From the NCBI GenBank assembly GCA_016235585.1, contig JACRJY010000157.1:31398-95397 (forward strand): a stretch of 64,000 nt of DNA. Reading direction: 5' to 3'. Shown piece after piece: positions 21,621 through 55,970 of the stretch (the stretch's first letter is position 1; every line of letters starts with the position of its first letter). The notes below the pieces were generated by a model that was given only the letters and a program-made list of their open reading frames with translations, made no database searches and was not told the DNA's origin. This stretch comes from Verrucomicrobiota bacterium. GTDB lineage: Bacteria > Verrucomicrobiota > Verrucomicrobiia > Limisphaerales > JACRJY01. A program made the translations under genes and the position numbers.

Positions 21621-21842
21621 GTGACCTCGACCACGATCATTGAGGAAATCCGCCATCTGTCCCCCGCCGGACAAGCGGAGGTGATCCGCTTCACGCTGCA
21701 ACTCGCCCGCGAGCGCGCCCTGACGCCCGACGAACTGACCGGGCTGGCGCGGCGCATGGTGGAGTCCAATGATCCGGCGGAGGTCGAGCGGCTCAAGAGC
21801 GCGATTACTGGCGGCTTTTACGGAGACGCGGCTCATGCCTGA
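21621..21842 (+). CDS. Small protein, cassette gene A copy 1 (antitoxin-like N-terminus)
   Basis: MTSTTIIEEIRHLSPAGQAEVIRFTLQLARERALTPDELTGLARRMVESNDPAEVERLKSAITGGFYGDAAHA; homologous to 53507-53749. Confidence 0.7.
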   Translation: MTSTTIIEEIRHLSPAGQAEVIRFTLQLARERALTPDELTGLARRMVESNDPAEVERLKSAITGGFYGDAAHA

Positions 21843-22077
21843 AATCCGCCGCGTCAATCTGCCTCCGGCGCTGCTGGCCCATCTCCTCGACCGCATCAAA
21901 CAACGGCAAATCTCCGCCGAACAGCTCGGCTTGCTGGCCGCGTGGCTCGACACGCATCCCGAAGTGCCGCCGGGCAAATGGTTCAAGCGCTTTCCCGGCA
22001 TGATTGCCTGCGGCGAAGGCGAACTGATAAAAACTTTCCTGCTGCCGGGCCAGTTGCCAGAAGGGCGGGAGCTGTAG
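21835..22077 (+). CDS. Small protein, cassette gene B copy 1
   Basis: MPEIRRVNLPPALLAHLLDRIKQRQ...WLDTHPEVPPGKWFKRFPGMIACGEGELIKTFLLPGQ; 8-nt overlap (ATGCCTGA) with gene A; homologous to 53742-53987. Confidence 0.75.
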   Translation: MPEIRRVNLPPALLAHLLDRIKQRQISAEQLGLLAAWLDTHPEVPPGKWFKRFPGMIACGEGELIKTFLLPGQLPEGREL

Positions 22078-44494: not shown

Positions 44495-47083
44495 ATGGCC
44501 GCAATTCTTTCCCCGCCGCCGCGCGTGAGCGTGGACGGCAAGTGCTTCCGCCTCGGCGAAAAAAAGTTTTTCGCCAGGGGCGTGACCTACGGCCCGTTCG
44601 CGCCGAACCAGAGCGGCGAACCGTTCGCGTCGCCGGAGCGGACGGCGCAGGACTTCGCGCTCGTCCGTGAACTCGGTGCGAATGTGCTGCGCGTTTATTA
44701 CACGCCGCCACGCTGGTTTCTCGACCTCGCCCTCGCGCATGAACTCAAGGTCATGGTGGACGTGCCGTGGAGCAAGCAGCTCTGCTTCCTCGACGATTAC
44801 AAGCTGCGGCTCGAAGCCCTCGATGCGGTGCGCGCTGCGGCGAAGGCGTGCGCGGGGCACCCGGCCATCTTCGCCATCAGCGTGGTGAACGAGATTCCGG
44901 CGGACATCGTGCGCTGGAGCGGCGCGGAGCGCGTGGCGGAGTTCATTGACGACCTCGTGGACGCGGTGAAGGCGGTGGACGCGGACTGCCTCTGCACATT
45001 CGCGAGCTTCCCGCCGACGGAGTTTCTCCAGCCGCAGAACATTGATTTCGTCTGCTTCAACGTCTATCTGCACCAGCAGCGTCCGCTGGAAAACTACCTC
45101 GCCCGCCTGCAGATGATGGCGGACACCAAGCCGCTGATGCTCGGCGAATTCGGCATTGATTCCATCCGCGAGGGCGAGGTGGCGAAGTGCGAGATTCTGC
45201 GCTGGCAAATCGAGACGGTCAGCCGTGCCGGACTGGCGGGCACGATTATCTACAGCTTCACCGACGACTGGTTCAAGGACGGCTGGCAGATCGAGGACTG
45301 GGCGTTCGGTCTCACGACGCGTGACCGGCAGCGGAAAGATTCATTCCGCGCGGTGAAGGAGGCGTTCGCCGTCGCACCGTATTTTCCGCTCAAGCAATCG
45401 CCGAAAGTCTCCGTCGTCGTCGCCAATTACAACGGCGCGCGCACGCTCAAGACCTGCTTCGACTCGCTCGGCAAACTCAATTATCCCGACTACGAAGTCG
45501 TCTTCGTGGACGACGGTTCGACCGACGCCTCGATGCAGATCGCGTCGCTCTATCCGAACATCCGCATCTTCCAGCACGCGAAAAACCAGGGCCTCTCCGT
45601 CGCGCGCAACACCGGCATCGCGGCGAGCGCCGGCGAAATCGTCGCGTTCACCGACTCCGACTGCCGCGCGGACGAGGACTGGCTTTATTATCTCGTCGGC
45701 GATTTGATCAACAGCCGCTTCACCGGCATCGGCGGGCACAATTTTCTTCCGCCGGAAGATTCCCCCGTCGCCGCCGCCGTGATGGTTTCGCCCGGCGGCC
45801 CGGCGCACGTGATGTTGAACGACCGCCTCGCCGAGCACATTCCCGGCTGCAACATGGCTTTCTACAAATGGGCGCTCGACGAAATCGGCGGCTTCGATCC
45901 CATCTACCGCAAGGCCGGCGACGACGTGGATGTCTGCTGGCGTTTGCAGCAGCGCGGCTACCGCATCGGCTTCAGTCACGCGGGCTTCGTGTGGCACTAC
46001 CGGCGCTCGACGGTGAAGGCGTATCTCAAGCAGCAGCAGGGCTACGGCGAGGCCGAGGCGCTGCTCGTGCGGAAGCACCCCGAATACTTCAACACGCTCG
46101 GCAGCAGCATCTGGCAGGGGCGCATCTACACGCCCGCCAAGCTCGGCGTCGTCACGCGCCGGCCCATCATCTACCACGGCGTGTTTGGCAGCGGGCTGTT
46201 TCAATCCATCTATCGCGCGGAGCCGTCGCTCGGCTTGATGCTGCTGACGAGCCTCGAATACTACGTCCTCGTCCTGCTGCCGCTGCTCGTGCTGGGAACG
46301 GTGTTCACGTTCCTGCTGCCCGTGGGAATGGCGAGCGTGCTCGTCTCGCTCGGCTTGTGCGTGCTGGCGGCGGCGCAGGCGGAGTTGCCGAAGAAGAAAC
46401 GCCGCCGCTGGTCGCGCCCGCTGATTGCGCTGCTGTTCTTCCTCCAGCCCATCGCGCGCGGCTGGGCGCGCTACCAGGGCCGGCTGCACCTGCGGCAGAC
46501 GCCGCTCTCCGCGCACGAGACGCTCGACACGCTCGACGAGAAAAACAAAAAGAAGAACTTCACCGAGCTGCAATACTGGTTTCGCGGCCCGGTCACGCGG
46601 ATGGATTTCCTCGCGCGCATCCTCGACGCGCTCGACAAGCAGGGCTGGCAGAGCAAAACCGACAGCGGCTGGAACGAGTTCGACGTGGAAATCCACGGCA
46701 GCCGCTGGTGCCAGTTGCAGCTCGTGACCCTCGCGGAGTCGCATGGCGAAGGGAAACAGCTCTTCCGCTGCCGGCTCCGCACCGAGTGGAGCCTGCTCGC
46801 GCACGTCACGTTCTGGGCGGCGCTGGGATTTGAACTGCTGCTGGCCGGCACGGTGGGGCGTCTGGTGCCGTCGCTCTGGCTGCTGCTTTTCAGCCAGGTC
46901 GTTCTGCTCTGGTTTTTTCAGCGTGAACGCCGCAGTTTGGAACGCATCATCGGCGTGTTCCTTGACGGCGTTGCGAAGAAGATGAACTTCATCAAAATCG
47001 AGCCGGAACCGCTCCGGGCCAGGCGCGTCGTGGCACGGCGCGTTGACAAACCGCCCCCGCCGGACGCCGCCGCCAAGCCATAA
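44495..47083 (+). CDS. Fusion protein: TIM-barrel glycoside hydrolase-like domain, GT2 glycosyltransferase domain, membrane domain
   Basis: N-term FFARGVTYGPFAPN...VVNEIPADIVRWSG...LGEFGIDSIREGE; then VSVVVANYNGARTLKTCFDSLGKLNYPDYEVVFVDDGSTD...; C-terminal TM helices. Confidence 0.85.
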   Translation: MAAILSPPPRVSVDGKCFRLGEKKFFARGVTYGPFAPNQSGEPFASPERTAQDFALVRELGANVLRVYYTPPRWFLDLALAHELKVMVDVPWSKQLCFLDDYKLRLEALDAVRAAAKACAGHPAIFAISVVNEIPADIVRWSGAERVAEFIDDLVDAVKAVDADCLCTFASFPPTEFLQPQNIDFVCFNVYLHQQRPLENYLARLQMMADTKPLMLGEFGIDSIREGEVAKCEILRWQIETVSRAGLAGTIIYSFTDDWFKDGWQIEDWAFGLTTRDRQRKDSFRAVKEAFAVAPYFPLKQSPKVSVVVANYNGARTLKTCFDSLGKLNYPDYEVVFVDDGSTDASMQIASLYPNIRIFQHAKNQGLSVARNTGIAASAGEIVAFTDSDCRADEDWLYYLVGDLINSRFTGIGGHNFLPPEDSPVAAAVMVSPGGPAHVMLNDRLAEHIPGCNMAFYKWALDEIGGFDPIYRKAGDDVDVCWRLQQRGYRIGFSHAGFVWHYRRSTVKAYLKQQQGYGEAEALLVRKHPEYFNTLGSSIWQGRIYTPAKLGVVTRRPIIYHGVFGSGLFQSIYRAEPSLGLMLLTSLEYYVLVLLPLLVLGTVFTFLLPVGMASVLVSLGLCVLAAAQAELPKKKRRRWSRPLIALLFFLQPIARGWARYQGRLHLRQTPLSAHETLDTLDEKNKKKNFTELQYWFRGPVTRMDFLARILDALDKQGWQSKTDSGWNEFDVEIHGSRWCQLQLVTLAESHGEGKQLFRCRLRTEWSLLAHVTFWAALGFELLLAGTVGRLVPSLWLLLFSQVVLLWFFQRERRSLERIIGVFLDGVAKKMNFIKIEPEPLRARRVVARRVDKPPPPDAAAKP

Positions 47084-47311
47084 CGCTTCGCGGCGCACCC
47101 GGTTTAATCCCCCCGCATTTTTCCCCTTGCCAGCTTCGGACGGCAGGCGTAGAAAATTCCCAATCGCCCGCAGAAGAACGCCTTTAAGGAAGGTGCATAC
47201 GGGCGGGAAATCCGTAACAATGAAACCATGGCCCGCGCCGATCACAGTCGCGCTGATTTTTCCCGCGCCGACATAGACGACATGGTGCCGCCAAACAGGA
47301 GGAAAAAAACC

Positions 47312-48022
47312 ATGCCCCGTTATTCCGTCAACAAGACTGCCGCCTACGCCCGCAGCGTGGGCAGCCTCTTCACCCGCAACTAGGCCGCGCTCCTCGCCAA
47401 GGGCTACAATGCCACCGACGACATCGCCGCGCTCACCGCCGGGGCCGACGCCCTGTCCGTGACCGACGAAGTCCAGGAGCACGCCAAGTCCGCGCAGACC
47501 GACGCCACCGCCGACATCGAGGCCGCCGCCCGCGCCGCCTACACCCTCGCCAGCAACGCCCTCACCACCGGCAGCGGCTTCCTCGGCAAGACCGGCAGCG
47601 AGGCCGACGAGGCCCGCCGCCTTCGCGCCGGGGTTTCCAAGCAGGGCAACCCCGCGCAGGTCGCCGCCTTCGTCACCAGCGTCATCGCCTACCTCAACAA
47701 CCACAAGCCCGCGCTCCTTGCCAAGCATTACGACCCCACCGCCAAAATCGCCGAACTCACCCCGCTGACCACCAGCCTCACCACCGGCAAGGGCGACCAG
47801 GAATCCAAGAAAGGCGCGCGCGGCGACGCCACCACCGCCATTGATGATGCCACCGACGCGCTCTTCAACTCGGCCAACGACCAGCTCGAAGCCGCCATCG
47901 GCCTTTACGACCCGGACAGCGAGTTTGTGAAGGAAGCCCGGCGCATCCGCCTCGCGCTGCGCGGCCCGGAAGGCGGCGGCACAACCCCGCCGCCCGCGCC
48001 CCCGGCCCCGCCCAACCCGTGA
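47312..48022 (+). pseudogene. Unknown protein interrupted by an in-frame TAG at codon 24 (47381-47383)
   Basis: Strong SD (AGGAGG) before ATG 47312; MPRYSVNKTAAYARSVGSLFTRN*AALLAKGYNATDDIAALTAGADALSVTDEVQEH... continues in the same frame to 48022. Confidence 0.7.
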
Positions 48023-48042
48023 ACCTGAATTTCAAAATCAGT

Positions 48043-48195
48043 GGGGAGCACACCCGCCCCCGGGTGTGGCGGGATGCGCCCCCGCATCCCGCTCTTTTGC
48101 GGCGAACCGGGATGCAGAAAACTCCGCCGGATTTCGTGCCCCGCCGGTTTTCCGCGAGGGCGCGGAAAACAGCACGCGAGGCGCGTGCGCTCCCC
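48043..48195. repeat. MITE-like palindromic element related to 38237-38384
   Basis: Ends GGGGAGCACACCCG / GCGTGCGCTCCCC; internal GTTTTCCGCGAGGGCGCGGAAAAC hairpin followed by AGC..GCGAG.CGC..GCGCTCCCC, as at 38336-38384. Confidence 0.65.
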
Positions 48196-48267
48196 GTTCC
48201 ATTTCGGTTTCAAGCGCGCGGCATGAACACGATGCCGCCATCCACGCCTCGTTGCGGAACCGTCCTC

Positions 48268-48540
48268 AACGCGTTGGGACGATTTCAAAACGCGCTGGGT
48301 CTTTTCCCTAACGTCCGGGAACATTTCCACCACGTCCGCCAACATCTCCATAACGTCTGCCGGAGTCTCCCGCCCGTCCGCCGAGGTTGCAAAAACGTCC
48401 GCCCAATCCTCGATAACTCCCGCCGAGGTCTCCACCACGTCCGCCGAGATTTCCATAACCACCGCCAAGGTCTAAAAAACGTTCGCCCAAGTCTCCATAA
48501 CGTCCGCCGATGTTTCAAAAACGTCCGCCAAAACCTCCCA
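48268..48540. repeat. 21-bp tandem repeat array, 13 degenerate units of AACGTCCGCCNANNTCTCCAT
   Basis: Units start every 21 bp with AAC/CAC; encodes 7-aa repeats NVRxxLH on + and stays open in the minus frames. Confidence 0.92.
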
Positions 48541-48615
48541 AACACCATGAAATGAGGAATTTACGCCATTTCCAATCCCCTAGACGCCAGACGCCATCCC
48601 CCATCCCCTAATCCT

Positions 48616-49071
48616 ATGTCTTTCGACCCCACCTGGCCTCAATACGGCGATGAACTGACCTCCGTGCGCCTGCGCGAGCAATGGAACAGCCTCGACCAGA
48701 AAATCGCCAGCCAGCCGCCCGGCCCCCAAGGCCTGAAAGGCGACAAGGGCGATAAAGGAGACAAAGGCGACCCCGGCGAACCCGGCGGCCCGCCGGGGCC
48801 ACAGGGCGACCCCGGCCCGCAAGGGGAACAAGGCCCGGCGGGCGACCCCGGTGGCCCGCAAGGCCCACAGGGGGAACCGGGGCCGCAAGGCGACAAAGGC
48901 GACCCCGGCGACGTGAGCAGCCAGCAACTCGACGATGCGATTGCCACTACCGCAAACAACCCCAGCGGCATCGGCCCCTACGGCGGCGATTTCAGCGACC
49001 CGCCCACGCAACAGGAAATGCGCGACTTCCGCGATTATATGGAGACGCTGCGGCAGGCGCTTATGCGATGA
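48616..49071 (+). CDS. Collagen-like Gly-X-Y repeat protein
   Basis: [64 protein letters not shown]. Confidence 0.88.
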
Positions 49072-49282
49072 ATTGTGCAAAAGAACAAAGCCATCGAGAA
49101 AGCAGGGAACGGGGAATAACCTGTCAATAAATCACACTTGATTTCCTTGAAGCGAAGCCCATCATTGCCGCCCCTTTCCTTAAAAAAGGGCATCAAATGG
49201 CAGGCAACCAAATGGCCAACCGATCTAACCGCTGTCGCGGTTGGATTCTTATCTTTTGAATCCTACTAATTCCGTCTCCGAT

Positions 49283-52200
49283 ATGCGCACTCTCGATTCA
49301 TCTCGTTGGCCTAGATTTCTCGACCTCTACTCCGCTGAATTGGGCCAATGGTGCCGAGATCTCGAATCATCTTCGGACACCATTTTGGCCATTGCCCGGA
49401 AAGGCCCTCGTCTTGTCGAACTGCTAGTGCATCTAAAAATGCTGCAACCGAGCGTTTTAGAGCGCATCATTACGGAGCATTCGCTCCCATGTGTTAAGGA
49501 CTTGGATGCACAACTGACAGTCGCAGATGATATTCTCACTTACGGGTCTACTTTCCATCGAATTTGTCACTTGTCAGAGGAGTTTGCTAAAGAACATGGA
49601 AAAAGAACTGTGATCTCCGGGTTGCCCTTTGCTGTCTGTGAAACAGTTCCGAATGATTTTCGCGTGAAGCTTAACAAGCACTTTTTGGAATTGCCCTACA
49701 ATCAAGTCTGCTCCTTTGTTCACGCAGAGATGGACGCCTTCAAACTGCTCGGAAAACCCAATGAAATTGAAAACCCGACTTTATCTGCCGAGGGAGATTT
49801 CTCTGATATTGCTCGTGTTGAATACACGATTTCAGCCATAGCAAGAAAGATGAAAGGAGTGGTTGCTCAATTGCATCAACCAGTCTTTTTTCCAAGCCAA
49901 ACAAGCATGGCTTACAGTTGGCTAATCGCTCTGGATGCTGACGATCAAATGTCAACGCAATATGCCCCTGAATTCCGCGCCATCCGCGTCTTTCGAGCGG
50001 TAGCGGGCGACCGTTTGACCTTCGTTGCAATCCGTCACTGTGCACTTGATGCACGATCGTCTGATGAATTTATGCAGTGTCTTCCGTCAACATTGCAAAA
50101 TCTTTGGCAACTTCCACATGCGCATCGCAAGTTCCAATCCGAGCACACAGAATTGGCCGCAGGTCGCAACAGATCAATGTGGGCTAATTATCTCAAAAAA
50201 GTGTTAATGTTATCCGAATGCCAAGAGATAATTCGCACAACCATTGAGGGAATATTCGGATCGCGCCGGTTTTTCCTTCCGTCCGTCTTTGACATTCAAC
50301 TTCTTCTTGGCAAGGAATTTGCAAGACCTGCTTCCGAAGCTATCAGTAATTTCTTTGGAGAGCCATCGGCAAACCGGCAGTTGAATTCTAAAATTCCAAA
50401 TGTAATGCCATGTTCGGAAAGGTTGTTTGATGAGATATACCCTAAAAAATATGAAATGCAATATAGGGTTCGCTTCGGTCAACTCGTCTCAAAGGCTCGA
50501 AATCCGCGCGAGGTGCTCCAAGCAATATTTCACGCGCAGCATCTTGAAATCGATATTCCATCGAGAACCCTAGAGGATTCTGTTCATAAGCGTTTGGAAT
50601 TTGGCATCCGCTTTCCACAATTGGAAAAAATTGTCCGAGAGCAATTTCCACTAACACCTCAAAGTGAAATTTTAACCGAACTCGCACGATTGATTGATGA
50701 TGGAGTTGTAGTGCCTAGGCACGCCAACTTTTCGAGAGATGATGTGCCAATATGGACGCGCGTCTATCGAGTTGGAGAAGGGATGACGCCGCGTCGTGAA
50801 CAAGCGATTCTACTTTTATATTCGAAACTTAAAAAGTCCATTTCAGAGCAATCGCCAGCGGCATCTGATTTAGGTATTCCAGCGACGCTTTTTGAAAAAT
50901 TTTGCGCCCTAATTTTAGATGTTTGCAAAGAATATCCAGACTTCCGAGAATTGCAAAAAATCGACACTAAAAAAGGGTTTTGCCTTTACGGAGCGCGTCA
51001 AATTTTAGTGATTGGCCAACGAAGCGAGTATCTGACTGACTGGGCGATTCACAAGGATTTGCTTTGCCCTACGGTCACCGGATACCAAGAAGAGGTTTCC
51101 CAAGGTTATATGCTAGCAGACGACATAATGGCTCGTTATCCGGAGAGCGAAATACCTTGGGACAGACTTGTCCAACGTCGCGTCAGAGACGCATCTGAAT
51201 TTGCCGCGCTATTGCACACGACCCCACAACTCAAGACAAATGCATTCGTTACGATTACAACCGTTGCAACGGACAAGGAACTTGCTTTGGCCATCGAAGC
51301 AGAGCTGCAATTATGGCTCTTTCATCCAAAACATTCAATTTTCCAAGCTACAAGATCAATTCTTGATTATGCTCGTCAGAAGCACACATACAAAACTGAC
51401 AACGCTGTAAATGCTGTCCTTGTCAAAGCTTCAAATTTCCCCGCCCAGGCCAAAACCAAAATGGAATTGGCAGGTGCACGGTTAGAAATGTTTGAGAAAA
51501 TTAACCTCGCCGTCCAATCCTCAAAAAACAATTCGATTATTGATATTTGGGACGACGTGTATAAGGCAATTACAAGTCGTTCACGATTGGAGCCGGCTCT
51601 TTCTGGACATGAATCAATAAGGAGCTGTCTTAACATTGCACAGACAAGCTCAAGCCTGCTTCGGGACTTGTTGTCGTTATCCGGGTTCAAGCCGAAAATA
51701 TCGAGCGGGCGGCCTCCGAAACCGTTGGTTGATTCTTTAACTGCAGTGTTAGGCAGAATCGAGAACGCTGAATTGGCTGCGAAAAGCTTTTTTTTAGGAG
51801 AAACCAACCGAAAGAATGTAAAACAAGAAATTGATAAATTGCGCCTCTTACCCGATCTAAATAATTTCACCACCGCCGCCGGTCCAATTTGTTCTTTGAT
51901 CAATGATATTGCTTTTCGATGTGAAGAAGTGCTTCGCACTTTTGGAAGTGAATCAGTGTGCGAGTCACCCGAAATGTTGCCGCCACCAAAATTTATACTG
52001 TTATGGGATGTTCGCGGTTCTTCCGGCATTACTGATTCAGCAGAACTGCACCCGTATGTGATAAATGCCAATAATAGAATTAAAGAGACGTTGGGTAGCC
52101 GAATTCGTAACTTCAACGTGTTAAGTCTGGATGACGGTAATGGCCTAATTTGCGATGACTTTTCTGACGCCATCACCGCATATGACATTCTTTGTAAAGC

Positions 52201-52597
52201 CCTCGGTGATAATAAAATCACTGTTCGCGCCGGGTGTTCAGTAAACCTTGAGGGTAGCCTTCTTTATTATTCCAAGTCACATCGCCTTGGCGGAAAGGCT
52301 TATGAAACTGCTGCAAGGACACGAGATTTTTTTGACGAGCTGCGAAAGGACAACAACCGATGGTCTGGGGAAGAAGTTTCAGAACCTAGCAAGGATGAGA
52401 ATTTTTTGATAATTCATGAATTTGCGAAGCGCTATGCTCAAGAGCGCGGCCAGTGGAATCAACTGACCGACAGATACGCCGTTCGCGATCTGAACGGGAA
52501 GTATCGTCCGAGACTGGCTAATGCTCTCTTTGTCGAACTTGCTCTCGCAATGCCACGTCAACCTCAAATCGCCTTGCAATTCGAAGCTAAATCGTAG
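49283..52597 (+). CDS. AT-rich orphan large protein with C-terminal class III nucleotidyl cyclase-like region
   Basis: Long uninterrupted ORF; C-terminal FILLWDVRGSSGITDS...LDDGNGLICDDFSDAI...ITVRAGCSVNLEGSLLYYSKSHRLGGKAYETAARTRDFFD. ORF track opens at TTG 49241; ATG at 49283 preferred. Confidence 0.55.
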   Translation: MRTLDSSRWPRFLDLYSAELGQWCRDLESSSDTILAIARKGPRLVELLVHLKMLQPSVLERIITEHSLPCVKDLDAQLTVADDILTYGSTFHRICHLSEEFAKEHGKRTVISGLPFAVCETVPNDFRVKLNKHFLELPYNQVCSFVHAEMDAFKLLGKPNEIENPTLSAEGDFSDIARVEYTISAIARKMKGVVAQLHQPVFFPSQTSMAYSWLIALDADDQMSTQYAPEFRAIRVFRAVAGDRLTFVAIRHCALDARSSDEFMQCLPSTLQNLWQLPHAHRKFQSEHTELAAGRNRSMWANYLKKVLMLSECQEIIRTTIEGIFGSRRFFLPSVFDIQLLLGKEFARPASEAISNFFGEPSANRQLNSKIPNVMPCSERLFDEIYPKKYEMQYRVRFGQLVSKARNPREVLQAIFHAQHLEIDIPSRTLEDSVHKRLEFGIRFPQLEKIVREQFPLTPQSEILTELARLIDDGVVVPRHANFSRDDVPIWTRVYRVGEGMTPRREQAILLLYSKLKKSISEQSPAASDLGIPATLFEKFCALILDVCKEYPDFRELQKIDTKKGFCLYGARQILVIGQRSEYLTDWAIHKDLLCPTVTGYQEEVSQGYMLADDIMARYPESEIPWDRLVQRRVRDASEFAALLHTTPQLKTNAFVTITTVATDKELALAIEAELQLWLFHPKHSIFQATRSILDYARQKHTYKTDNAVNAVLVKASNFPAQAKTKMELAGARLEMFEKINLAVQSSKNNSIIDIWDDVYKAITSRSRLEPALSGHESIRSCLNIAQTSSSLLRDLLSLSGFKPKISSGRPPKPLVDSLTAVLGRIENAELAAKSFFLGETNRKNVKQEIDKLRLLPDLNNFTTAAGPICSLINDIAFRCEEVLRTFGSESVCESPEMLPPPKFILLWDVRGSSGITDSAELHPYVINANNRIKETLGSRIRNFNVLSLDDGNGLICDDFSDAITAYDILCKALGDNKITVRAGCSVNLEGSLLYYSKSHRLGGKAYETAARTRDFFDELRKDNNRWSGEEVSEPSKDENFLIIHEFAKRYAQERGQWNQLTDRYAVRDLNGKYRPRLANALFVELALAMPRQPQIALQFEAKS

Positions 52598-52624
52598 CTC
52601 TCGATATTTGTCCTCCGCCTCCCG

Positions 52625-52931
52625 TTATGAAACCCGCCGCATGAAATCCGCCTGACTCGACATCTCCATCCCCGTCCATACCGGCATGGTTCACTGGCCG
52701 GAGTAGCATCACCAAGGCCCGCGCGCGTTTTCCCTTCCGTCTGTCGCGCTTCCCGGCGAAACTGCCCGCGTTTATGCAGCAATATCTCGACCTCCTCCGG
52801 CTCGTCTTGGACCAGGGCAATATCTCGACCTCCTCCGGCTCGTCTTGGACCAGGGCAAGTTCAAGGCCGACCGCACCGGCACGGGCACCTACTCGCTCTT
52901 CGGCGCGCAGGTGCGCTTCGACCTCCGCGCC
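52625..52931 (+). pseudogene. thyA: Broken thyA 5' end plus upstream cyclase-family remnant (copy 1)
   Basis: Parallels 54046-54317; contains a 38-bp tandem duplication (52780-52817/52818-52855) and stops abruptly at the toxin stop codon. Confidence 0.85.
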
Positions 52932-52933
52932 AT

Positions 52934-53194
52934 TCAGCCGTCCTTGAGCAGCCGCTCGTATTCGTCATGGGGGCCAATCCAGAACCAATACAGGACGCCG
53001 TCCTGAATCCGCCCCAAGGCGCGATGGCCGCTGGACACGCGGGCCGTCCAGTAGTCGCCTTTCTTCTCGAAGCGGAGCGAGGGGTGGCGGGAATTTTCCA
53101 GCCAGAGCCGGTAAGCCTTGCGCGCCTGCGTCCGCACCCTGGGCGGCAGGGCGTGGTAAGCGGCCCAGAAGTCACTGGTCGTTGAGGACTTCAT
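52934..53194 (-). CDS. RelE/ParE-superfamily toxin-like protein
   Basis: [76 protein letters not shown]. Confidence 0.82.
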
Positions 53195-53393
53195 CGAGGG
53201 GCTTCACCCGTCCGGCGGCGATGTCGGCCTGGGCCTTGCGCCACAGCTTGTCCAGCCGCCCGGCGGCAACGTCCGCGTCCATCTGCTTGTCCCACTTGTC
53301 GTCGAGGTAGTCTTGCAGCCAGCCCGCGATTTCCCAGGCCTCTTTTTCGGGAAGCTGGCGCAGGGCCGATTCGATTTCAGTCACGGTGCTCAT
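53172..53393 (-). CDS. Cognate antitoxin-like protein
   Basis: [73 protein letters not shown]; overlaps the toxin start. Confidence 0.75.
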   Translation of the reverse strand: MSTVTEIESALRQLPEKEAWEIAGWLQDYLDDKWDKQMDADVAAGRLDKLWRKAQADIAAGRVKPLDEVLNDQ

Positions 53394-53506
53394 GGGCGCA
53401 CAGTAGGGGGCCGGGCGCGGTTTGGCAACGCAAACGAAGCACGGATCGAAATGAACGAGCGCCCTTTTCATTTGAACGCCACCTTGTTGTTCAGTAGGTT
53501 TGCCGC

Positions 53507-53749
53507 ATGACAGCGACCACGGTCATTGAAGAAATCAAGCACCTGCCGCCCGGCGAACAATCGCGCGTCCTCCGCTTCGCGTGTGACCTCGCGCGTGAAC
53601 GGCAGTTGTCGGGCAGTCCCGCCCCGCTCACGCCCGAGGAACTGGGCGAACTGACCCGGCGGATGGTTGAGACCAAAGACCCCGCCGAGGCCGCTGGCTT
53701 GCAGGCGGATATCATGCGCGGGTTTTACGGTTCCGCTGCGCATGCCTAA
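53507..53749 (+). CDS. Small protein, cassette gene A copy 2
   Basis: MTATTVIEEIKHLPPGEQSRVLRFACDLARERQLSGSPAPLTPEELGELTRRMVETKDPAEAAGLQADIMRGFYGSAAHA. Confidence 0.72.
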   Translation: MTATTVIEEIKHLPPGEQSRVLRFACDLARERQLSGSPAPLTPEELGELTRRMVETKDPAEAAGLQADIMRGFYGSAAHA

Positions 53750-53987
53750 AATCCGCCGCGCCAAGCTGCCTCCTGCCTTGCTGGCCCACCTGTTGATGCG
53801 GATGCGCGAACGGAACATCGCCCACGAACAAGTCGTTCTTCTCACCCGCTGGCTCGACACCCAGCCCGAAGTGCCGGACGGCAGATGGTTCAAAAAATTC
53901 TCCGGCCTGACCGTCTGCGGCGAAGGCGAACTCATCAAAACCTTTTTGCAGCCCGGCCAGGCCGCCACGGGTGAGGAGTTGCATTGA
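53742..53987 (+). CDS. Small protein, cassette gene B copy 2
   Basis: MPKIRRAKLPPALLAHLLMRMRERN...WLDTQPEVPDGRWFKKFSGLTVCGEGELIKTFLQPGQ; 8-nt overlap (ATGCCTAA). Confidence 0.75.
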   Translation: MPKIRRAKLPPALLAHLLMRMRERNIAHEQVVLLTRWLDTQPEVPDGRWFKKFSGLTVCGEGELIKTFLQPGQAATGEELH

Positions 53988-54195
53988 GCCGGACATGGCC
54001 AAGGTAATTTCCAAAGTTGAACGGCGCTGAATTATTTTCCCCTTCGCGTTATGAAACCCGCCGCATGAAATCCGCCTGACTCGACATCACCATCCCCGTT
54101 CACACCGGCATGGTTCACTGGCCGAGGTAGCCGCTTCAAGCCCGGCGCGTTTTCCCTTTCGTCCGGGGCGCTTCCCGGCAAAACTGCCCGCGTTT

Positions 54196-54990
54196 ATGCA
54201 GCAATATCTCGACCTCCTCCGGCTCGTCTTGGACAAGGGCAAGTTCAAGGCCGACCGCACCGGCACCGGCACTTACTCGCTTTTCGGCGCGCAGACGCGC
54301 TTCGACCTGCGCGCCGGCTTTCCGCTGCTGACCACGAAAAAACTGCACACGAAGTCCATCATCTACGAGCTGCTCTGGTTTCTGCGCGGCGACACGAACG
54401 TCAAGTATCTCAACGAGCACGGCGTCACCATCTGGAACGAGTGGGCGGACAAGGACGGCAGCCTCGGCCGCGTCTATGGCGCGCAATGGTGCGACTGGCG
54501 CACGACCGATGGCCGCAGCCTCCACCAGATTGACCAGGTCATCGCGCAGATTCAGAAAAATCCCGACAGCCGCCGGCACATCGTCAGCGCATGGAACGTC
54601 GGCGAGCTGGATCAGATGGCGCTCGCGCCGTGCCACACGCTGTTCCAGTTTTACGTGCGCGACGGCGAGCTTTCCTGCCAGCTCTACCAGCGCAGCGCGG
54701 ACCTCTTCCTCGGCGTGCCGTTCAACATCGCCAGCTACGCGCTGCTCACGCGGATGGTTGCGCAGGTCACGGGGCTGAAAGCGGGCGACTTCGTCCACAC
54801 CTTTGGCGACCTGCACCTCTACGCGAATCATCTCGAACAGACCAAACTCCAGCTCACCCGCGAACCGCGCCCGCTGCCGGTGCTGAAGCTCAACCCGGCG
54901 GTGAAAAACATCCACGACTTCAAGTTCGAGGATTTCGAGTTGACCGGCTACGACCCGCATCCGGGCATCAAGGCGCCGATTGCGGTGTAG
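54196..54990 (+). CDS. thyA: Thymidylate synthase, intact copy
   Basis: [32 protein letters not shown]...[11 protein letters not shown]...[12 protein letters not shown]...[17 protein letters not shown]. Confidence 0.97.
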
Positions 54991-55004: not shown

Positions 55005-55322
55005 ATGAAACAATCAATCGTCAGAATCGCTGCGGCTGTTTACGTGATAGGGTTTATCGCTTCAACAATGACGTTATGTATACCACCCGCGTGTCTGCCG
55101 CTTTTCATCGGTCTTGGGGTAATTGCACTAATTCCTTTGGCATTCGGTTCACGTGGCTATCGGATATTCGGTGCTTGTGCATTGGCGCTGGCAGTTGTTG
55201 CAGCAGTCGAAGAGTATCGCGCTGGTAAAGAATGGGAGGAGCGCTTTCGGTCGCTGCGTGAGAAATTAAGAACTGGCGGGCAGACTAATAATCCTTCAGC
55301 GACCGCCAAGCCGGGGAAATGA
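55005..55322 (+). CDS. Small membrane protein of unknown function
   Basis: MKQSIVRIAAAVYVIGFIASTMTLCIPPACLPLFIGLGVIALIPLAFG... Confidence 0.55.
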   Translation: MKQSIVRIAAAVYVIGFIASTMTLCIPPACLPLFIGLGVIALIPLAFGSRGYRIFGACALALAVVAAVEEYRAGKEWEERFRSLREKLRTGGQTNNPSATAKPGK

Positions 55323-55861: not shown

Positions 55862-55970
55862 GCTGAAGCTCAACCCGGCGGTGAAGAACATCCACGACTT
55901 CCAGTTCGAGGATTTCACATTGGAAGGCTACGACCCGCATCCGGGCATCAAGGCGCCGATTGCGGTGTGA
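55862..55970 (+). pseudogene. thyA: 3' fragment of a second thyA copy
   Basis: [35 protein letters not shown] near-identical to the intact ThyA C-terminus. Confidence 0.93.

Follow-up and report, generated by a model that had tools for sequence, protein, structure and literature searches.

An AT-rich gene inserted upstream of thyA encodes an orphan protein with a class III cyclase-like C-terminal domain

Introduction

The residues which choose the base vary among class III cyclases. The base-specifying pair is Lys/Asp for ATP and of Glu/Cys type for GTP, and in Pycsar altered base-choosing residues can mean new messengers. EaPycC uses F100, R142 and Q144 for CTP, and PycC is partnered by a separate receptor/effector gene (PMC11224242). 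In Rv1900c, a His occupies the position of the Asn of the GxxVNxAAR motif, and this was taken in that study to negate the requirement for Asn (PMC4886424). The uncharacterised soluble proteins of the DUF2652 group are ~250 aa long and nearly all single-domain; they possess class III topology, the metal Asp and charged base-specifying residues, while the Asn is not always kept (PMC4886424).

In this work, a 64 kb stretch of bacterial DNA, referred to as the window, was analysed around an AT-rich island. The island encodes a large orphan protein whose C-terminal part resembles these cyclases. The features of the island and of the protein are as follows.

49080..52600, strand not assigned: AT-rich island with one gene (GC 0.43-0.47 against 0.60-0.70 outside)
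49283..52597, + strand: orphan gene, 1,104-aa protein (open frame, GC3, no database match)
49373..49627, + strand: possible phosphoribosyltransferase-like segment, residues 31-115 (loop pattern, HMM 3.5 bits)
51989..52366, + strand: predicted class III cyclase-like core, residues 903-1028 (AlphaFold2 topology, Foldseek PDB matches)
52007..52009, + strand: D909, putative first metal Asp, end of strand 1 (sequence, model position)
52133..52135, + strand: D951, putative second metal Asp, hairpin of strands 2-3 (sequence, model position)
52316..52318, + strand: R1012, putative transition-state Arg, start of the AAR helix (sequence, model position)

Comparison with known systems and proposed role

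The C-terminal part of the orphan resembles the class III NCHD (PF00211; Rv1900c and Ma1120 types) in its predicted topology, the two metal Asp, the catalytic Arg and their spacing, and the Asn is missing in both the orphan and Rv1900c (PMC4886424). Unlike PF00211 cyclases, it has no profile match, possesses Leu947 and Arg1001 for Lys and Asp, Glu for Asn and DDGNG for GDG, and is fused to ~880 further residues. A class III-derived fold, predicted in the case of the orphan, and the metal Asp pair are shared with Pycsar PycC, but the orphan is far larger and has no separate receptor/effector gene. The positions of F100, R142 and Q144 of EaPycC (D1-2, D2-4 and D2-2) are taken by Leu907, Leu947 and Leu949, respectively, when compared by motif position. 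The metal Asp of DUF2652 and, in the predicted model, its class III topology are also seen in the orphan, which differs from these small proteins in size, in domain number and in its base-specifying residues, and matches no Pfam family. Near the N-terminus, TVADDILTYGST is akin to the PRPP-binding loop of phosphoribosyltransferases (PF00156) and PRTase-CE (PF24390) and is preceded by an ARKG loop; unlike in these families, the spacing between the loops is short, and the segment is matched by neither PF00156 nor PRTase-CE and finds no support in the predicted fold. The diverged cyclase-like domain of the orphan is a test of the reach of class III cyclases, as the known base-choosing residues are all missing from it and it belongs to a large protein without known relatives.

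Probably the gene was acquired recently, stands alone and encodes a soluble signalling protein of several domains, its output being divergent and class III cyclase-like. The first ~880 residues would sense a cue, and the phosphoribosyltransferase-like segment near the N-terminus is a possible nucleotide- or PRPP-binding part of this sensor. The C-terminal core of ~130 residues would act as a dimer, using D909 and D951 to hold two metals and R1012 to help in cyclising an NTP. The existence of the gene, its foreign base composition, its insertion site and the presence of the three catalytic residues are established; we infer sensing, dimerisation and catalysis, as well as the substrate and any cellular role. 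That the orphan tail works like a class III cyclase is held with moderate confidence; the claim stops short of membership of the class III family because the profile test gave no match and the base-specifying residues are replaced.

Active site residues of the C-terminal domain

The initial annotation had recognised the end of the protein by three peptides, ILLWDVRGSSG, LDDGNGLICDDFSDAI and LGGKAYETAARTR. All three were found in the protein, and D909, D951 and R1012 are contained in them. In the AlphaFold2 model these residues are placed at the canonical class III positions, R1012 within AYETAAR. The order of Asp, Asp-Gly and AAR with class III spacing was found in none of 5,000 protein shuffles, using a pattern written after seeing the sequence. 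The Asn of GxxVNxAAR, four residues before R1012, is replaced by Glu1008, in agreement with its reported absence. As Rv1900c possesses His at this place, the Asn is not a universal requirement and its loss is tolerable; Rv1900c was also among the top Foldseek matches of the orphan C-terminus. At the base-specifying positions, alignment by motif position showed Leu947 for Lys and Arg1001 for Asp, and therefore no base was assigned to the substrate. From its residues, catalysis by the C-terminus appears possible but uncertain.

Because Leu947, Arg1001 and Glu1008 replace canonical residues, the domain may be inactive and may retain the cyclase fold for nucleotide binding or dimerisation. The change of both base-choosing positions together with that of Asn to Glu would suit such a domain, and so would its escape from profile HMMs. 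But both Asp and the Arg are retained at their proper positions, which a dead domain would not need, and we consider this explanation rather unlikely.

Predicted fold of the C-terminal domain

The structure of residues 844-1104 was predicted by AlphaFold2 without alignment, and the model reached a pLDDT of only 39.6. Its first half is composed of a strand (903-912), a helix (919-940) and two strands (941-946 and 953-957), followed in the second half by a helix (960-974), two strands (979-989 and 992-1000) and a C-terminal helix (1010-1028). This order corresponds to the signature of class III (PMC4886424) when the two first helices of the signature are counted as one. In a Foldseek search against PDB, 10 of the 16 best-ranked chains were class III cyclases, and four of these had probability 1.00, with matches to 5d15, 1ybt, 1ybu, 3mr7, 5d0h, 4wpa and 5d0g; the best E-value was 0.0098 and none was below 0.001. 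Against viral models, the second match was a guanylate cyclase of Pandoravirus. A model of the N-terminal part, whose confidence was just as low, matched no cyclase and nothing coherent in Foldseek, which speaks against the cyclase matches being a generic artefact of a poor model. At the sequence level, the C-terminus found no match in Pfam, including PF00211, and against a profile built on 30 cyclases of related genomes it scored no better than shuffles.

The class III cyclase-like tail proposed by the initial annotation is supported by the topology, the placement of the catalytic residues and the Foldseek matches, which come from a low-confidence model, but not by sequence profiles, where the comparison with cyclases came out against it. 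On the predicted structure, a class III cyclase fold of the C-terminus is supported, not proven. A coincidental likeness in a protein of unrelated fold would be consistent with the very low model confidence and with the lack of a significant profile or Foldseek E-value. In both libraries the Foldseek matches cluster on a single fold family; this, the N-terminal control and the shuffled motif order argue against coincidence, which is regarded as unlikely.

Search for relatives of the orphan protein

No relative of the orphan was found in Pfam, NCBIfam, PADLOC or PHROGs, and none of its C-terminal part among PDB sequences. Searches of plasmids and phages by tblastn, and of viral contigs and GTDB genomes by peptide-pattern scans, were also negative. 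The first GTDB scan used exact 8-mers and the second a single degenerate motif-1 pattern; the rows added to define degenerate patterns were made-up search probes which carry no evidential weight. Since such scans depend on short stretches of conserved peptide, they have little power for distant relatives. No relative was detected in about 1,000 genomes of the phylum, drawn as overlapping sets from the order (322), the class (390), the phylum (394) and another class (200). The best non-self scores in the genome searches were scattered at about 10-15 bits and were taken as chance. A match to PHROG 28184 (E 0.0044), covering 33 residues of a 60-position profile, was likewise dismissed as chance. 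The term orphan, used already in the initial annotation, is supported by these genome, plasmid, phage, viral and family searches in the sense that no relative was found at the sensitivity of the tools used.

N-terminal region

DTILAIARKG (residues 32-41) and TVADDILTYGST (residues 79-90) resemble the two loops by which phosphoribosyltransferases contact their substrates, the latter presenting the PRPP-binding loop motif. In background frames of 345,655 aa, the loop pattern of TVADDILTYGST was found elsewhere only in loci retrieved by searches for phosphoribosyltransferase families and in the window's own 225-aa phosphoribosyltransferase. The phosphoribosyltransferase HMM gave the N-terminus only 3.5 bits, yet this was above all 306 scored shuffles. 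The N-terminus had no Pfam match (PF00156) and no significant profile alignment, and its model showed no phosphoribosyltransferase fold. The loop is considered a possible lead. The structure prediction proposed for this region gave a low-confidence, uninformative model. PRTase-CE (PF24390), a candidate family for the N-terminus, was rejected as hhalign returned no alignment. wHTH-PRTase (PF24409) matched nothing above its cut-off in a set of 197 genomes, and this genome gave no match either. Within residues ~170-880, to which no family was assigned, a winged-helix-like stretch was read by eye only, near residues 470-520.

The question of anti-phage defence

The initial annotation had suggested a possible single-protein defence system, and had noted that anti-phage cyclase systems such as Pycsar typically lie near toxin-antitoxin (TA) modules. 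In a single-gene anti-phage system, the N-terminal region would sense infection and the cyclase domain would signal or deplete NTPs, leading to growth stop. A foreign, isolated, AT-rich gene at a variable site which also gathers TA genes would suit such a system, and Pycsar employs class III-like cyclases (PMC11224242). But the orphan gene and the nearby genes tested gave no PADLOC match, and the island is of a single gene, with no Pycsar receptor/effector gene and no Pfam or PADLOC effector nearby. Pycsar membership fails because the defining pair of cyclase and effector gene is missing, and the searches found no homologs which could show an association with defence. ParE-like genes are adjacent, but the TA genes near the orphan have host-like GC3 (0.70-0.84) and are located within thyA-derived repeats, and so were probably not acquired together with it. 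They were rejected as partners of the orphan for their different composition and their own repeat context. An anti-phage function of the orphan is possible, without specific support, and a single-gene system of this kind is an improbable account of the locus. It is very unlikely that the protein is a one-protein nucleotide-signalling system outside the known families, joining in one chain a phosphoribosyltransferase-like sensor to a cyclase-like domain whose base-recognition pocket (Leu947/Arg1001/Glu1008) is new, and protecting its host from phages through an unusual cyclic nucleotide.

Composition of the orphan gene and its island

A divergent signalling protein on a recently acquired stand-alone gene remains our preferred reading, and the acquisition is reflected in composition. 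GC is 0.43-0.47 over 49.25-52.5 kb and about 0.60-0.70 in the flanking contig. The shift is abrupt at both borders, and the island is the sole part of the window with GC below 0.53 in 500-base windows. The frame at 49241-52597 (+) has 1,118 open codons from TTG, an alternative start, while the first ATG at 49283 gives an intact protein of 1,104 aa. The chance of a stop-free run this long is ~1e-27 by hand arithmetic (0.9445 per codon to the power of 1,104, at the base composition of the island). Windowed GC and the open frame therefore agree with the reported GC drop exactly over one ORF of ~3.3 kb.

The GC of the three codon positions (0.54/0.40/0.42) shows a coding pattern that differs strongly from that of the host, whose genes show GC3 of 0.82 +/- 0.07 (n = 36) against 0.42 in the orphan. 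From one end of the gene to the other GC3 varies little (0.38-0.49), so the gene probably arrived in one piece. The gene is present in single copy in the genome and the island has no second gene. No transmembrane segment was found in the protein (maximum 19-residue hydropathy 1.53). The ends of the island showed no target-site duplication and are framed by no repeat, direct or inverted, that exceeds chance. Of the genes of the window that were checked, none was recognised as an integrase or transposase.

Upstream of the gene, one structural feature was recorded.

49222..49257, + strand: 11-bp hairpin with T-rich tail, terminator- or attenuator-like (terminator scan, fold)

This hairpin lies ~26 bases 5' of the ATG, and another small inverted repeat, GGATTC...GAATCC, comes after it. 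The folding of the hairpin was not beyond shuffles (z about -1); it could terminate the gene upstream or act as an attenuator in a leader. A match to Rfam 'sar' upstream of the gene was dismissed (18 bits, cut-off 43).

Insertion site between the glycosyltransferase gene and thyA

Two host genes border the site.

44495..47083, + strand: glycosyltransferase 2 gene of the host, bordering the hot spot on the left (Pfam PF00535; adjoins thyA in 9 of 29 relatives)
54196..54990, + strand: thyA, bordering the hot spot on the right (Pfam PF00303; relatives)

For the empty-site comparison, thyA and its surroundings were taken from 29 order-level relatives. In nine of them, thyA is immediately preceded by the glycosyltransferase gene in the same orientation with a gap of 30-240 bp, while in the window the gap is 7.1 kb (47084-54195). 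In this lineage, the region of 47.1-54.2 kb is a hot spot for insertions, and the orphan is one among several unrelated arrivals, the others being a gene with collagen repeats, ParE-like toxin genes together with their small partner ORFs, and pieces duplicated from thyA. This position marks the orphan gene as mobile cargo and not as a host housekeeping gene. The foreign composition and the empty sites in relatives support horizontal acquisition, as had been proposed from the base composition. The contig which carries the gene is 95 kb of a 4.6 Mb assembly. An assembly chimera, in which DNA of another organism was wrongly joined into the contig, would find room in an incomplete assembly of 221 contigs and would explain the abrupt change at both ends, but it is highly improbable, requiring two independent misjoins in one contig between host-like genes at a site already variable with several other insertions.

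Both ends of thyA were found to be duplicated at 88-94% identity. The left duplication (52614-52935 and 54038-54320) comprises the upstream region and the 5' end, and the right one (54882-54988 and 55862-55968) comprises the last ~107 bp. Between the copies of each pair lies a ParE-like toxin gene accompanied by small partner ORFs. The left copy also contains the start of thyA as a short tandem repeat. None of the thyA loci of the 29 relatives contains such duplicated fragments. On the 3' side of thyA, a small ORF at 55005-55322 has orphan-like GC3 (0.43) and is possibly a further foreign fragment. A 21-bp tandem repeat with eight register matches lies within a + frame at 48290-48546 and adjoins the collagen-repeat gene (48616-49071). 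The peptide IRR.(K/N)LPPALLAHLL is common to the small ORFs at 21769-22077 and 53742-53987, hinting at a possibly repeated small host gene.
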